From Rhodobacterales bacterium 52_120_T64 (GTDB lineage Bacteria > Pseudomonadota > Alphaproteobacteria > Rhodobacterales > Rhodobacteraceae), in NCBI GenBank assembly GCA_002162875.1, contig MABA01000021.1, positions 124,001 to 188,000 of the forward strand: a stretch of DNA of 64,000 nt, in the 5' to 3' direction. A program made the translations under genes and the position numbers. Position 1 is the first letter of the stretch. Each line of letters starts with the position of its first letter. Below, piece by piece: positions 9,074 through 15,571 of this stretch. The notes under the pieces were generated by a model that saw only the letters and a program-made list of their open reading frames with translations, was not told the DNA's origin and searched no databases.

Positions 9074-9130
9074 GGATCCTTGGGTTGGCATCCCCTAACT
9101 TCAACATGCATCACCTAAAGGAGAACTCAA

Positions 9131-9364
9131 TTGTCCCACACGCCTAACGAATTAATCGATATGTTCCCGAAACAAGCAGCCCAAATCCACGATCTAAAGG
9201 CTGAGAACGGAGAGTTCTCACGTATTTTCGATGAATACCATGATGTAACACGCGAAATACACCGTGGTGAAACCAATGTTGAACCGATGGATGATTTTCA
9301 CCTAGAGGAGTTACGTAAACGGCGCTTGCAAATGCTCGATCGTGTAACAGCAATTCTCAAATGA
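9131..9364 (+). CDS. DUF465 (YdcH-like) small protein
   Basis: Small charged helical protein of 77 residues with the DUF465/YdcH pattern: NELIDMFPKQAAQIHDLKAENGEFSRIFDEYHDVTREIHRGE, then EELRKRRLQMLDRVTAILK at the end. It is probably an alpha-helical hairpin or short coiled coil; the function is not known to me. The start is TTG at 9131, strongly supported by AAAGGAG at 9117-9123 and by the conserved MSHTPNELI beginning. Its end is 4 nt from the relict liuC stop on the other strand. Confidence 0.85.
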   Translation: MSHTPNELIDMFPKQAAQIHDLKAENGEFSRIFDEYHDVTREIHRGETNVEPMDDFHLEELRKRRLQMLDRVTAILK

Positions 9365-9368
9365 TGAA

Positions 9369-9940
9369 CTAGGGTTTCCAACTAGGCGCGCGTTTTTCGA
9401 AGAACGCAGAAACGCCTTCCATTGCTTCGGGATGTTCCCATGTATCGGCCAGCCTTTCGATAGTCTGGTCGATAACACCGTCGTCAATTGTGGGGCCCAA
9501 ACTTCTGAATAACGCCTTCGTTACAGCCACAGCAGCCGGGGCAAGTTCCGAATATCAGCGCGCCTCCTCGTTTATGGTAGCATTTAAGTCTTCGACCGCG
9601 TCCGTAATAAGACCGATACCTTCAGCCTTGCTGGCTGAAAGTATCAGAGCCGACAAACCTGCATACCGAGAATTGTTCTCGCCGATTTTCGCATTGACGT
9701 AGGGGAAAATAGTTGCAGATATCAAACCAATTTAGTCGAAGTAAGCAAACAATTCGCATTTATCGAACAACATGCGATATCGCCAACGGATATTAAGCCA
9801 ACGCATTTCCATGCACATTACCAATCAACGGTATTGGTAGCGTAATAAGATGAAACAGCATCTCAGCCAGTTTACATGCCTCGGCGATACGTTGTAATCG
9901 CGTTGGTGTCAGTACTTAACGAAATCGTGGAATAGGGCAT
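9369..9940 (-). pseudogene. Decayed methylglutaconyl-CoA hydratase (liuC-like enoyl-CoA hydratase)
   Basis: Remnant of an enoyl-CoA hydratase/isomerase in the position where liuC is expected, starting 1 nt after the liuE stop. An ATG at 9940 opens MPYSTISLSTDTN, the usual N-terminus. A deletion of roughly 75 residues joins this to a piece reading RIAEACKLAEMLFHL (from 9891), then PLIGNVHGNAL, then a stop where the Gly-rich oxyanion motif should be. Further pieces GLISVGDIA and GLISATIFPYVNAKIGE occur in different frames. The last 119 codons are one frame (from 9728) ending FFEKRAPSWKP, but carry an in-frame TGA at 9555-9557. Deletion, frameshifts and a nonsense codon together exclude function. 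This region would otherwise read as a 570-nt gene-free gap. Confidence 0.88.
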
Positions 9941-9941
9941 A

Positions 9942-10796
9942 TCAGCTCTCGCTCAAAGATCGGGCAAATGCGGATGCCTTGTTCAATTTTTCTATACTCA
10001 AGCCGGTTTCATAGTTCATTTCATGCAGCATATTTACCACAGCAACCGTATCAACATTTCCTTTAGCACCTTCCGCATACGGACAACCGCCTAACCCACC
10101 AACTGCGGAGTCGAATGTTCGAATACCAGCTTCGAGACATACGTCGATATTTTTAAGAGCGTTGTTGTTGGTGTCATGGAAATGACCAGCAATTAGGTTT
10201 CCAGGGATTTCATTCATCACTGAACTAATTAGACGGTGCGTAGTTTCGGGAGTTGCGGCTCCGATTGTATCGCCAAGCGAAATTTCATAACACCCCATGT
10301 CGAGTAAGCGTAAAGCAACCCGAATAACCTGATCCGGGGCAATTCGACCATCATATGGACAGTGAGTAACACAAGACACGTAGCCTCGAACCTTACACTT
10401 ATCAATCTTTGCCTGCTCTATAATTGGCAAAAACCTTAGCAAACTATCCTCTATCGAACAATTTATGTTTTTCCAACTAAATCCTTCCGAAGCGGAGCCG
10501 AAAATCGCGACTTCATCTACACCGGCTTCAATCGCAGCCTCATACCCCCGCATATTCGGCGTCAGCGCAGTATAGGCCGTCCCACCTTTCTTAGAAATGC
10601 CAGCCATAACAGCCGCAGCATCGGCCATTTGCGGCACCCACTTTGGGCTGACGAAACTAGTAGTTTCTATATGAGAGAACCCGCAGTTCGAAAGCATGTC
10701 TACCAATTTAATCTTGTCCTCAGTCGCGATTAGACGCTTCTGATTTTGCAAACCATCTCTCGGACCAACCTCAAATATTTTCACATGCTCAGGCAT
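9942..10796 (-). CDS. liuE: Hydroxymethylglutaryl-CoA lyase
   Basis: Cleaves 3-hydroxy-3-methylglutaryl-CoA to acetoacetate and acetyl-CoA, the last step of leucine catabolism. The 284 residues match the HMGL-like TIM barrel: EVGPRDGLQNQK at the N-terminus with substrate and metal residues, GDTIGAATPETTH, HFHDTNNNALKN (metal-binding His pair), and the signature GLGGCPYAEGAKGN with the catalytic cysteine. It overlaps the end of liuD by 8 nt, so it is translated as part of the liu operon. Its substrate normally comes from LiuC, which is a pseudogene immediately downstream. Either another hydratase feeds it or its role here is reduced. Confidence 0.94.
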   Translation of the reverse strand: MPEHVKIFEVGPRDGLQNQKRLIATEDKIKLVDMLSNCGFSHIETTSFVSPKWVPQMADAAAVMAGISKKGGTAYTALTPNMRGYEAAIEAGVDEVAIFGSASEGFSWKNINCSIEDSLLRFLPIIEQAKIDKCKVRGYVSCVTHCPYDGRIAPDQVIRVALRLLDMGCYEISLGDTIGAATPETTHRLISSVMNEIPGNLIAGHFHDTNNNALKNIDVCLEAGIRTFDSAVGGLGGCPYAEGAKGNVDTVAVVNMLHEMNYETGLSIEKLNKASAFARSLSES

Positions 10797-12750
10797 CAGA
10801 GTCTTCCAAAGTCAGCAAAACCTCTCCGGCTTCCACCTGTTGCCCGACCTTAACCAATATTTCCGAAATGCTACCGTCCCGCGCAGCGGTCAGCGAATGC
10901 TCCATTTTCATAGCCTCGATAATTATCAGCGTATCACCGGCATTAACCTCACTTTTAGGGGCCGCGTTCAGTACCTTCACAATACCCGGCATGGGCGACA
11001 GTATCTCGTTACCGCTGCCTTCCCCAATTTCACCAATGGAATATCCAGTAACGATATCAAATACTTTCGTGGCGTCACCCATGAACAGGGTAACCGTATC
11101 ATCCTGCTTAAAGTACTGGACTAACCGCCGATGATCGCCGTCAACCAGCGTCAGAGAATTTTCAAATACGGCCTCAACTCGCAGACTCGTCTTTTCAGAT
11201 GAATTCGAAATTGTGAAGGCCTGCGTTCCGTTCGCCGTTACCAATAGCTCAATCTCTTCGCCATTCGCGGCTAGCCACACAGACCTATTCATTGGCGTCC
11301 AAAGACTCCAACCGGTTAAGGGACCATCTTCCGCGAAGTTGCCAGCGATCACCGCGGCAAGCGCCCAGTCGACAAATGCTAGATCTGCCGATACGGTCAA
11401 TTCATTTAGGTCACGTTCAATAAGCCCCGTGTCAACATTTCCAAGTTTAAATTCCGTATGCGCGCACAAAGCGGATAGGAACGGTATGTTTGTGACTGTT
11501 CCGGAAATGTTGCTCTCTGCGAGTGCTGAACTCATGCGAGCAAGCGCGATCTCTCGAGTTGCGCCCCAAACGATGACTTTTGATATTATTGGGTCATACC
11601 AAGGCGTTATAACGTCACCTTCGCGGATACCGCTATCTACGCGAGCCATGGGGGACATCGATAAATAGTCTATTGACCCGGTCATGGGTAAGAACCCAGC
11701 GGGAACGTCTTCAGCATATATTCTTGCTTCGAACGCATGCCCACTTAAGGTTAAACCATCTTGTGTGACTGGTAGAGGTTCGCCATTCGCAACCCGAAAT
11801 TGCCATTCAACAAGATCTTGGCCGGTAATCATCTCGGTTACCGGATGCTCTACCTGTAAACGTGTATTCATTTCCATAAACCAGAAACGATCGGGGCTCA
11901 GCCCTTTAGAGGCGTCGACAATGAACTCGATTGTGCCCGCGCCGCTATAACCGATAGCTTTGGCGCATCGGACGGCGGCTTCGCCCATCGCGGTGCGCAT
12001 TTCTTCGGTCATTCCGGGCGCAGGAGCTTCCTCGATTACCTTTTGATGACGCCGTTGTAAGGAGCAATCCCGCTCAAACAGGTGTATGGCGTTGCCATGG
12101 TCGTCACCGAACACCTGTATTTCAATATGACGTGGTTTTGTGATCCATTTTTCGATCAAACAGTGGGCATCGCCGAAAGCTGATAATCCTTCCCGTTGCG
12201 CGCCCTCAAGTGCACCGATAAAATCCTTTGGATTGTCGACTTTTCGCATACCTTTGCCGCCGCCACCCGCGCGGGCTTTGATTAAAACCGGGTATCCGAT
12301 GTTTTTGGCTTCGTTTGCAAGGAAATCTGCGTCTTGGTTCGATCCGTGATAGCCGGGAACGACAGGAACACCGCTGTTGGTCATCAATTCTTTGGCAGCG
12401 TCTTTCAGGCCCATCGCACGGATGGCGCTGGATGAGGGGCCGATGAACCGGAGACCAGACGCTTCCACAAGTTCAGCAAAATCAGGGGATTCGGAAAGAA
12501 AACCATAACCTGGATGAATAGCTTGGGCACCAGAAGCCTTCGCGATTTCAATAATCTTATCCCCTCGGAGATAACTTTCAGCGACAGCCGGCGGGCCGAC
12601 GCGCCATGCCTCGTCAGCTAAGGCGACATGTTTGGAATGTGCATCTGCATCCGAGTAGATCGCGACGGTTTTCACACCCAACTTTCGGGCGGTGTCCATA
12701 ATACGGCAGGCAATTTCGCCGCGGTTCGCTATGAGAATCTTGTCAAACAT
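10789..12750 (-). CDS. liuD: 3-Methylcrotonyl-CoA carboxylase, biotin-carrying alpha subunit
   Basis: Biotin carboxylase plus biotin carboxyl carrier subunit (653 residues) that carboxylates biotin with bicarbonate and ATP for methylcrotonyl-CoA carboxylation. The N-terminal MFDKILIANRGEIACRIM, the ATP-grasp segment GGGGKGMRKV, the FMEMNTRLQVEHPVTEMITG motif and a C-terminal biotinyl domain with EAMKMEH (biotin-accepting Lys615) are all present. Acetyl- or propionyl-CoA carboxylase alpha subunits are similar, but the place between liuB and liuE points to the leucine pathway. It starts 9 nt after the liuB stop. Confidence 0.93.
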   Translation of the reverse strand: MFDKILIANRGEIACRIMDTARKLGVKTVAIYSDADAHSKHVALADEAWRVGPPAVAESYLRGDKIIEIAKASGAQAIHPGYGFLSESPDFAELVEASGLRFIGPSSSAIRAMGLKDAAKELMTNSGVPVVPGYHGSNQDADFLANEAKNIGYPVLIKARAGGGGKGMRKVDNPKDFIGALEGAQREGLSAFGDAHCLIEKWITKPRHIEIQVFGDDHGNAIHLFERDCSLQRRHQKVIEEAPAPGMTEEMRTAMGEAAVRCAKAIGYSGAGTIEFIVDASKGLSPDRFWFMEMNTRLQVEHPVTEMITGQDLVEWQFRVANGEPLPVTQDGLTLSGHAFEARIYAEDVPAGFLPMTGSIDYLSMSPMARVDSGIREGDVITPWYDPIISKVIVWGATREIALARMSSALAESNISGTVTNIPFLSALCAHTEFKLGNVDTGLIERDLNELTVSADLAFVDWALAAVIAGNFAEDGPLTGWSLWTPMNRSVWLAANGEEIELLVTANGTQAFTISNSSEKTSLRVEAVFENSLTLVDGDHRRLVQYFKQDDTVTLFMGDATKVFDIVTGYSIGEIGEGSGNEILSPMPGIVKVLNAAPKSEVNAGDTLIIIEAMKMEHSLTAARDGSISEILVKVGQQVEAGEVLLTLEDSDA

Positions 12751-12759
12751 ATCGCCGTC

Positions 12760-14361
12760 CTACATCCGGAACACGCCAAATTGCGTGTCCTCTATTGGAG
12801 CGTTTAGCGCGGCCCTAAGAGACAGCGCCAACACCTCACGGGTTTTACGTGGATCGATCACGCCATCGTCCCAAAGGCGGGCGGATGCGTAAAGGGGGTG
12901 GGATTGGCGTTCGAACATCTCAATTGTGGGGCGCTTGAACTCCGTTTCTTCGTCTGTGCTCCATTGGCCACCGTTACGCTCGATTCCATCGCGCTTAACA
13001 GTCGCAAGGACACCAGCGGCTTGCTCCCCTCCCATCACTGAAATGCGGGAATTCGGCCATGTCCACAAGAACCGAGGGGAGTATGCACGCCCTGACATGC
13101 CGTAATTTCCGGCTCCGAAAGATCCGCCGACAAGCATGGTTACTTTGGGTACTTTGGTGGTCGCTACTGCAGTTACCAACTTCGCACCGTGCCTTGCTAT
13201 GCCTTCAGATTCGTACTTTTGACCAACCATGAAGCCTGTGATGTTTTGCAGAAATACCAGTGGAATTTTTCTTTGTGAACAAAGCTCTATGAAGTGTGCG
13301 CCTTTTACAGCGCTTTCGCTGAATAGCACGCCGTTATTGGCAACGATTCCAACGGGAATGCCCATAACGTGGGCAAAACCGCAAACGAGCGTGGTGCCGA
13401 AACGAGCTTTGAATTCGTCGAAACGGGACCCGTCAACGACGCGTGCGATTACCTCACGGATATCGTAGGGAGTTTTCAAGTCAGCGGGGACTACACCGAA
13501 GATTTCCGCTGGATCGAACGCAGGTTCCTCGATCGATTGCAGCGCGACAGTCGTTGGTTTGATACGGTTCAGGTTGCCCAATGCCTGACGGGCCAAATCC
13601 AACGCGTGGGCGTCATTTTCGGCCAAGTAGTCTGCCACACCGCTTAAGCGCGTGTGCACATCGCCCCCGCCTAAATCTTCGGCAGTCACGATTTCGCCTG
13701 TTGCGGCTTTAACCAATGGCGGGCCGGCGAGAAAGATAGTACCTTGCTCTTTAACGATGATGGTCACATCCGACATCGCGGGCACGTACGCGCCACCTGC
13801 GGTGCAAGAACCCATAACGACGGCAATTTGCGGGATGCCTTTTGCGGACATGTTAGCTTGGTTGAAAAATATGCGACCGAAGTGGTCACGATCAGGAAAA
13901 ACCTCGTCCTGTTGAGGAAGGTTCGCGCCGCCGCTGTCTACCAAGTAGACGCATGGCAGGTTGTTTTGTTCAGCGATTTCCTGTGCACGAAGGTGTTTTT
14001 TCACCGTCATCGGAAAATACGTACCGCCTTTTATGGTGGCATCGTTGCAGACGACCATGACTTCAGCGCCGTGGACGAGGCCAATTCCGGTGATGACGCC
14101 TGCACCAGGCGAAGCGTTGTCGTACATATCATGCGCGGCGGTCGCGCCAATTTCGAGGAACGGAGAGCCTGCGTCCAATAGATTGGCAATTCGGCGACGG
14201 GGCAGCATTTTGCCCCTCGATAGATGGCGCTCACGAGAACGCTGGTTACCTTTTGCCGTGATGGCCGCAACTTCCGCAATCTGTGCGAGGGCAGCTTCGT
14301 GAGCTGCAACGTTTGTTTTAAACGTGTCCGATCCGGTGGTTACGTTGGATTTCAGCTGCAT
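12760..14361 (-). CDS. liuB: 3-Methylcrotonyl-CoA carboxylase, carboxyltransferase beta subunit
   Basis: Transfers the carboxyl group from biotin to 3-methylcrotonyl-CoA, giving 3-methylglutaconyl-CoA. The chosen ATG at 14361 overlaps the liuA stop by one base (TAATG) and yields 533 residues beginning [18 protein letters not shown], the expected N-terminus and length. A longer frame to 14595 runs inside liuA and is rejected. Crotonase-fold carboxyltransferase features include [39 protein letters not shown] and the C-terminal [22 protein letters not shown]. Its product has no hydratase in this operon because liuC is broken. Confidence 0.94.
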
Positions 14362-15524
14362 TACCCTGTCACTTTCATCAATTCGCGGCCAATCAACATC
14401 CGGCGGATTTCGGATGTCCCTGCCCCGATTTCCATCAGTTTGGCGTCGCGCATTAGGCGGGAAACGGGTGAGTCGTTCATGTACCCTGCGCCACCCATGG
14501 CCTGTACACCTTGCACGGCCATCTCCATCGCTTTTTCGGATGCATACAATACGCAAGCGGCCGCGTCTTGGCGAGTTACTTCGCCGCGGTCGCAAGATTT
14601 AGCAACTTCGTAGACGTAAGCCCGGGCGGAATTCATAGTCGTGTAGATATCAGCGATCTTGCCCTGCATTAGCTGGAAGTTGCCGATGCTTTCACCGAAT
14701 TGCTTGCGCTCGTGCATGTAGGGCAGGATGTGGTCAAGAACGGCGTGAATGATGCCTACGCCGATACCGGACAGGACCACGCGCTCGTAATCGAGGCCGG
14801 ACATCAGGACGTTCACACCACGACCTTCTTCGCCCAGAACGTTTTCGAAGGGGACTTCAACGTCCTCGAATATCAACTCCGCAGTGTTGGAACCACGCAT
14901 TCCCATTTTGTCAAAATGTGGTGAGGTGGAGAAACCAACCATGGATTTTTCAACAATAAACGCGGTCATTCCACGTGAACCGGCGTCTGGGTCAGTTTTA
15001 GCGTAGACCACTAGCGTGTCGGCATCAGGACCGTTGGTAATCCAGTATTTTGTGCCATTCAGGATGTACCGATCGTTCTTTTTCTCGGCCCGTAGCTTCA
15101 TCGAAACCACGTCTGAACCTGCACCCGATTCAGACATTGCGAGCGCACCGACATGTTTGCCGGAAATCAAACCGGGGAGGTACTTTAGTTTCTGTTCATG
15201 GTTACCGTTCAGTTTGATTTGATTAACGCACAGGTTCGAATGCGCCCCGTAAGACAAGCTGACGGAGGCAGACGCTCGGGCGATCTCTTCGACGGCGATG
15301 GTGTGCGCGAGGTATCCCATACCTGCCCCACCGTATTCTTCGGGAACGGTAATACCGTGCAGGCCAAGTTCACCCATTTCCGTCCATAATTCAGACGGAA
15401 ATTCGTTTTTGGCGTCGATATCAGCAGCCATCGGCGCTAAGCGATCTTGCGCCCAACGGTGAACCATATCACGCAAAGCCTCAACGTCTTCTCCGCAGGC
15501 AAAATTCATCGAGGCGTTAAACAT
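14361..15524 (-). CDS. liuA: Isovaleryl-CoA dehydrogenase
   Basis: FAD acyl-CoA dehydrogenase that oxidises isovaleryl-CoA to 3-methylcrotonyl-CoA, the first dedicated step after leucine transamination and decarboxylation. From ATG 15524 (AAAGGAA upstream) the protein is 387 residues; the earlier in-frame start at 15548 falls inside the palindromic operator and is rejected. Glu247 in [13 protein letters not shown] is at the position of the isovaleryl-specific catalytic base, which separates this enzyme from most other acyl-CoA dehydrogenases. The flavin-binding [17 protein letters not shown] region and [16 protein letters not shown] at the end are typical. It is the first gene of liuA-B-D-E. 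Confidence 0.94.
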
Positions 15525-15547
15525 TGGGATTCCTTTCAAACTTTTCA

Positions 15548-15571
15548 TTAACTGAACACATGTTCACTTAA
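15548..15571 (-). promoter_or_regulatory. 24-bp near-perfect palindrome, probable operator of the liu operon
   Basis: Symmetric site made of outer TTAA arms, one unpaired base on each side, inner TGAACA and TGTTCA half-sites and a 2-nt centre. It lies 24-47 nt before the liuA ATG, where a repressor would block transcription or early elongation. The size and symmetry suit a TetR-type dimer, as used for several acyl-CoA-degradation regulons. No regulator gene is in the window. The identity of the regulator is inference. Confidence 0.55.

Follow-up and report, generated by a model that had tools for sequence, protein, structure and literature searches.

When the terminal gene of a catabolic operon is broken, is the pathway broken as well, or is the missing step supplied from elsewhere in the genome? 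This question is raised by a liu (leucine/isovalerate utilisation) operon in the 64,000-nt stretch of DNA analyzed here (the window; G000:C13:124001-188000), which belongs to a genome of 3.42 Mb in 26 contigs that is 99.99% complete (G000). The original prediction held that liuC, the last gene of the operon, is dead while its four neighbours are intact, and left open whether another hydratase substitutes or the pathway is in early decay. The features on which our analysis rests are as follows:

9119..9364, + strand: small open frame (81 codons from stop to stop), a neighbour that abuts the pseudogene and lies outside it
9369..9940, - strand: liuC pseudogene (3-methylglutaconyl-CoA hydratase, crotonase superfamily), from tblastn, orthologue alignments and an ECH_1 match with internal stops
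9555..9557, - strand: in-frame TGA stop, from tblastn and orthologue alignments
9728..9729, - strand: 1-nt deletion with frameshift, from orthologue alignments
9802..9803, - strand: junction of a 13-nt deletion, FGGG gone and frame shifted, from orthologue alignments
9891..9892, - strand: junction of a 194-nt deletion, codons 18 to ~82 gone including CAGGD, from pairwise alignments with G002, G003 and G009, each totalling 194 nt
9942..10796, - strand: liuE, HMG-CoA lyase, intact, 77-85% identical in close congeners
10789..12750, - strand: liuD, methylcrotonyl-CoA carboxylase (MCC) alpha subunit (biotin carboxylase), intact
12760..14361, - strand: liuB, MCC beta subunit, intact; top solved match P. 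aeruginosa MCC-beta (798 bits), MCC Phe191 kept; start set at the ATG near 14361 and not at the TTG at 14595
14361..15548, - strand: liuA, acyl-CoA dehydrogenase in the operon position of isovaleryl-CoA dehydrogenase, intact

The liuC remnant and the genes around it

Using the intact liuC of a congener (G003, 259 aa) as a tblastn query against the window, we recovered four collinear pieces on the minus strand in differing frames, covering residues 1-17, 75-111, 116-140 and 140-259, with 80% identity across the last 120 codons. These matches (E ~9e-65) exclude chance similarity and identify the remnant as liuC rather than another hydratase. The pseudogene also clusters with liuC of the genus in a tree and lies directly 3' of liuE, as liuC does in congeners; most relatives within the genus carry an intact liuC at this same site. 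Its limits, an ATG at 9940 just past the liuE stop and a TAG at 9371-9369, coincide with those first proposed.

The lesions were mapped by alignment with three intact orthologues (G002, G003 and G009), which bore out the in-frame TGA and the several frameshifts that had been predicted, since the 194-nt, 13-nt and 1-nt deletions each shift the frame. The internal deletion had been put at about 75 codons, which is an overstatement: 194 nt equal 64.7 codons, so that the large deletion, of about 65 codons, shifts the frame as well. The roles of the oxyanion-hole motifs and of the conserved glutamate in crotonases are well established. FGGG, removed by the 13-nt deletion, is the second oxyanion-hole motif, and TEVKL, which bears the conserved glutamate, has become TSTKL. 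With three frameshifting deletions, a TGA, and neither oxyanion-hole motif nor the TEV glutamate left, the pseudogene, judged from its sequence, cannot encode a working hydratase. That all of this is an assembly or sequencing artefact is exceedingly improbable: there are four independent lesions, including the two longer deletions, plus substitutions in conserved motifs, in a nearly complete genome of few contigs, and it is this number of separate lesions that makes an assembly error implausible.

Across the last 120 codons, the pseudogene shows dN/dS values of 0.08-0.13 against intact copies, compared to 0.05-0.08 between intact copies, which suggests that the loss is recent relative to the divergence from the compared species. 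A search of the plasmid collection with the pseudogene DNA gave no match. Small frames akin to the one at 9119-9364 on the plus strand adjoin liuC in two other genomes (G009 and G010).

As predicted, liuA, liuB, liuD and liuE are intact and tightly coupled, with open frames that overlap or almost touch. In pairs containing G000, dN/dS was 0.02-0.03 for liuA and liuB (full-length pairs), 0.06-0.08 for liuD and 0.04-0.09 for liuE, rough values given that synonymous sites are close to saturation, and about the same as in pairs of relatives that retain liuC. Relative-rate tests on the four genes gave no significant excess for G000 (largest chi-square 2.7). There is thus no sign of relaxed selection or decay in liuABDE, with the qualification that a very recent loss would be expected to leave none yet. 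These results bear on the possibility that the leucine/isovalerate pathway has become dispensable in this lineage, with the loss of liuC as a first step and that of liuABDE still to come. We regard such early decay as unlikely, considering that liuABDE is intact, that its dN/dS is normal and that changes specific to the lineage are not significantly in excess; in its favor, the surviving codons of the pseudogene still look constrained, and liuABDE may have had too little time to decay.

A LiuC-type paralog in a second operon

A search of the rest of the genome for a LiuC-like hydratase, as the original prediction had proposed, revealed 16 further crotonase-family proteins above the Pfam cut-off. 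One of these, at C6:45386-46177, is a full-length LiuC-type hydratase with 51% identity to liuC of the genus over 262 aa, while the next-closest G000 crotonase reaches 31%. It scores 374 bits against the equivalog model NF005675 (PRK07468; cut-off 350 bits), a model named only 'crotonase/enoyl-CoA hydratase family protein', compared to 373 bits for the G003 liuC and 447 and 368 bits for the canonical and C6-type proteins of R. pomeroyi, respectively. C6-type and canonical LiuC form sister clades (support for the joint clade 0.95), separate from five further crotonases of G000, and the C6 hydratase keeps the CAGGD, GGGVG and LTEV-LGLIPA motifs. Since it exceeds the NF005675 cut-off and is sister to canonical LiuC, the C6 hydratase is by sequence a LiuC-type enzyme, but it is not the native copy. 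The earlier statement that the product of the operon has become a dead end is probably wrong, given this paralog, the unrelaxed liuABDE and the similar genomes described below.

The step could also be covered, both in the G000 species and in the congener G004 discussed below, by a generic crotonase, such as the short-chain enoyl-CoA hydratase paralogs on contigs C11, C19 and C13. Crotonases are often promiscuous, and the 16 other family members offer many candidates. These others, however, are at most 31% identical to LiuC, and two that were tested fall to different NCBIfam equivalogs, whereas the C6 gene is far closer to LiuC and adjoins an MCC-type carboxylase. We therefore consider a generic crotonase quite unlikely, even though it would also account for G004, which has several such genes and no detected C6-type gene.

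The C6 hydratase belongs to an operon (C6:38951-49307) with the order TetR, mutase small subunit, mutase large subunit, MeaB GTPase, thioesterase, TetR, carboxyltransferase, hydratase, biotin carboxylase and acyl-CoA dehydrogenase, in which the TetR and thioesterase genes were named by eye. Its carboxyltransferase scores 585-628 bits against MCC-beta, 427 against geranyl-CoA carboxylase (GCC) beta and at most 266 against PCC. The Phe of its DHFG aligns to F191 of human MCC-beta, and the alignment to MCC-beta is gap-free near this residue, so that the three-residue insertion before the Phe is present. A Phe at human MCC position 191 distinguishes MCC from GCC by excluding geranyl-CoA, and GCC is reported to be without three residues present in MCC before Phe191 (PMC4673880). 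Based on the MCC-type score and the kept Phe191, the predicted product of the C6 carboxylase should be 3-methylglutaconyl-CoA, which the adjacent hydratase would then use as substrate. We also considered an Atu-type terpene operon, which is unsupported: the hydratase scores 221 bits against NF004227, the model for gamma-carboxygeranoyl-CoA hydratase (AtuE-type), with a cut-off of 426 bits. Assignment of the acyl-CoA dehydrogenase as an isovaleryl-CoA dehydrogenase (IVD) is likewise unsupported, as among solved acyl-CoA dehydrogenases it scores 288 bits with LCAD and 240 with IVD.

Upstream, C6:39566-42650 (L049:9566-12650) encodes MeaB and a B12-dependent acyl-CoA mutase whose small and large subunits are separate proteins. 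In alignments, the mutase has Leu and Ile at two positions that we take to set substrate choice; methylmalonyl-CoA mutase has Tyr and Ala there, and 2-hydroxyisobutyryl-CoA mutase Ile and Asp. Given the MCC-type pathway encoded in the same operon, it could be a mutase of the isovaleryl/pivalyl type; our literature search on pivalyl-CoA returned passing mentions only. Elsewhere on the contig, C6:81893-89843 encodes another MCC-like carboxylase pair, the third in the genome, next to an HMG-CoA lyase-like protein (36% identity to liuE), a set whose counterpart in Burkholderiales directly adjoins the C6-type hydratase set.

Regarding the origin of the C6 operon, its hydratase was found in none of 12 congeners of G000, and its carboxyltransferase is also missing from the sampled genomes of the genus. 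Hydratase orthologues with 85-87% identity and the same gene order occur in scattered Roseovarius, Sulfitobacter and Roseobacter and in a Rhodobacteraceae MAG, and a Hoeflea MAG carries a C6-type operon without the mutase, its hydratase again 85-87% identical. Because no sampled congener has the operon and such similar copies are scattered over Roseovarius, Sulfitobacter and Hoeflea, it was probably acquired horizontally. Its G+C content is 57.1%, compared to 52.4% for the window. The contig itself appears to be chromosomal rather than a plasmid, as its first 17 kb hold genes for a translation elongation factor, ribosomal proteins, RNA polymerase and nusG (named by eye).

Distribution of the loss and the favored explanation

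We then asked how liuC loss and the C6-type gene are distributed. The family in question is that of Ruegeria pomeroyi, as sampling around the R. pomeroyi genome led to the loci (G423-G427) already obtained for the window (G013-G017). Among 16 family members chosen solely for carrying the C6-type gene and also having liuE, canonical liuC is missing from four, in which liuABDE is free of stops and the sole close LiuC is the C6-type gene: Litorivita pollutaquae, Roseovarius amoyensis, a Roseovarius MAG and a Rhodobacteraceae MAG. For Litorivita and the Roseovarius MAG, the compared stretch ends within liuA. In an even set of 70 family genomes, all 56 that have liuE carry LiuC within 3 kb of it, one of them (G434) in frameshifted form. 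Loss of liuC and presence of the C6-type paralog are associated with p = 0.009 when counted by genome and p = 0.11 when the four genomes are counted as two clades, an association that is suggestive, not conclusive. The split liuC in G434 (G434:C1; L278:1565-2334), beside liuE, may reflect a sequencing error, and a second LiuC-type gene was sought in that genome and not found.

Within the genus, G004 carries a separate and much more eroded liuC remnant 3' of liuE (G004:C199; L024:1300-1500), in which the start codon has become ACG and recognisable sequence is limited to ~70 nt at the 5' end and ~130 nt at the 3' end. No C6-type gene was found in this genome, which is only 71% complete; either the replacement lies in the missing 29%, or another hydratase can serve. 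This second loss keeps the rival explanations alive and counts in favor of early decay, as do G007 and G008 of the same genus, in which neither a liuE ortholog nor an MCC-type liuB/carboxyltransferase was found: whole-operon loss happens in the genus, and the whole liu operon seems to be lost in G008, a 99% complete genome. Against decay, the near erasure of liuC in G004 marks an older loss, yet liuB, liuD and liuE of this genome still have open frames and show no acceleration in relative-rate tests. An interruption of G004 liuA is not a second broken gene; it is a run of N at a scaffold gap.

Taken together, liuC in the window is a real and fairly recent pseudogene, and we consider it likely that its step is covered by the LiuC-family paralog at C6:45386-46177 in a second operon, probably an acquired one. 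Of the two outcomes first left open, substitution is thus favored over decay, based on the second LiuC-type gene in an apparently acquired MCC operon, the unrelaxed liuABDE and the four genomes with the same configuration; the expectation that the loss is either recent or compensated held as well. Under this substitution, horizontal gain of an operon for a B12-dependent acyl-CoA mutase, an MCC-type carboxylase, a LiuC-type hydratase and an acyl-CoA dehydrogenase would have made the native liuC redundant, after which it would have been lost. Flow would run from LiuA through LiuB/LiuD and the C6 hydratase to LiuE. We infer from this that the C6 hydratase may act on 3-methylglutaconyl-CoA, that it would be expressed during growth on leucine, and that the gain of the operon presumably preceded the loss of liuC.

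Several observations run counter to substitution. Most C6-type carriers with liuE (12 of the 16) retain canonical liuC, indicating that the paralog normally has another or an additional role; the C6 acyl-CoA dehydrogenase is nearer to long-chain enzymes than to isovaleryl-CoA dehydrogenase; the TetR regulators may restrict expression of the operon; and G004 has lost liuC almost entirely, with no C6-type gene detected. A further proposal, which we advance tentatively and think unlikely, is that the two operons, of different origin, are interlocked, the native one keeping HMG-CoA lyase without a hydratase and the acquired one the reverse, so that each relies on the other. A quaternary-carbon acyl-CoA (e.g., pivalyl-CoA) might then be converted by a new mutase of the acquired operon to isovaleryl-CoA and so enter leucine breakdown. 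Such mutual dependence is weakened by an HMG-CoA lyase-like gene at C6:88890, 40 kb away on the same contig.

Substitution by the C6 paralog would matter for metabolic reconstruction, where damage to one gene of a catabolic operon is often taken to mean that the pathway has failed; here the step is probably supplied by a paralog elsewhere. A possible function is thereby suggested for a clade of LiuC-type proteins that many Rhodobacteraceae carry, and the natural strains without liuC identified here are ones in which that function is testable. The kind of event is already known; our searches of the open literature turned up no report of this liuC loss or of a function for the C6-type clade.

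Comparison with known systems

The locus in the window has the order of the liu operons (liuABCDE) of relatives, with liuA-B-D-E followed by liuC, and an MCC-type liuB with the diagnostic Phe, but differs in that its liuC is a pseudogene. The C6 hydratase scores above the equivalog cut-off of the LiuC/NF005675 family, which in the liu operons of Rhodobacteraceae takes the place of the 3-methylglutaconyl-CoA hydratase, but stands in a clade of its own and in another operon (TetR-CT-ECH-BC-ACAD, preceded by a B12 mutase set). With the Atu (acyclic terpene utilisation) cluster and its AtuE (isohexenylglutaconyl-CoA hydratase), the C6 operon shares an acyl-CoA dehydrogenase, a biotin carboxylase pair and a LiuC-like hydratase; in contrast to that cluster, its hydratase fails the AtuE-type model, and its carboxyltransferase retains the MCC Phe and aligns to MCC without gaps. 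Finally, as in xenologous or non-orthologous displacement after the gain of a functional paralog, the native gene is dead and a related foreign gene is present. Here, however, the displacing gene lies in another operon, and the two operons would need to cooperate.
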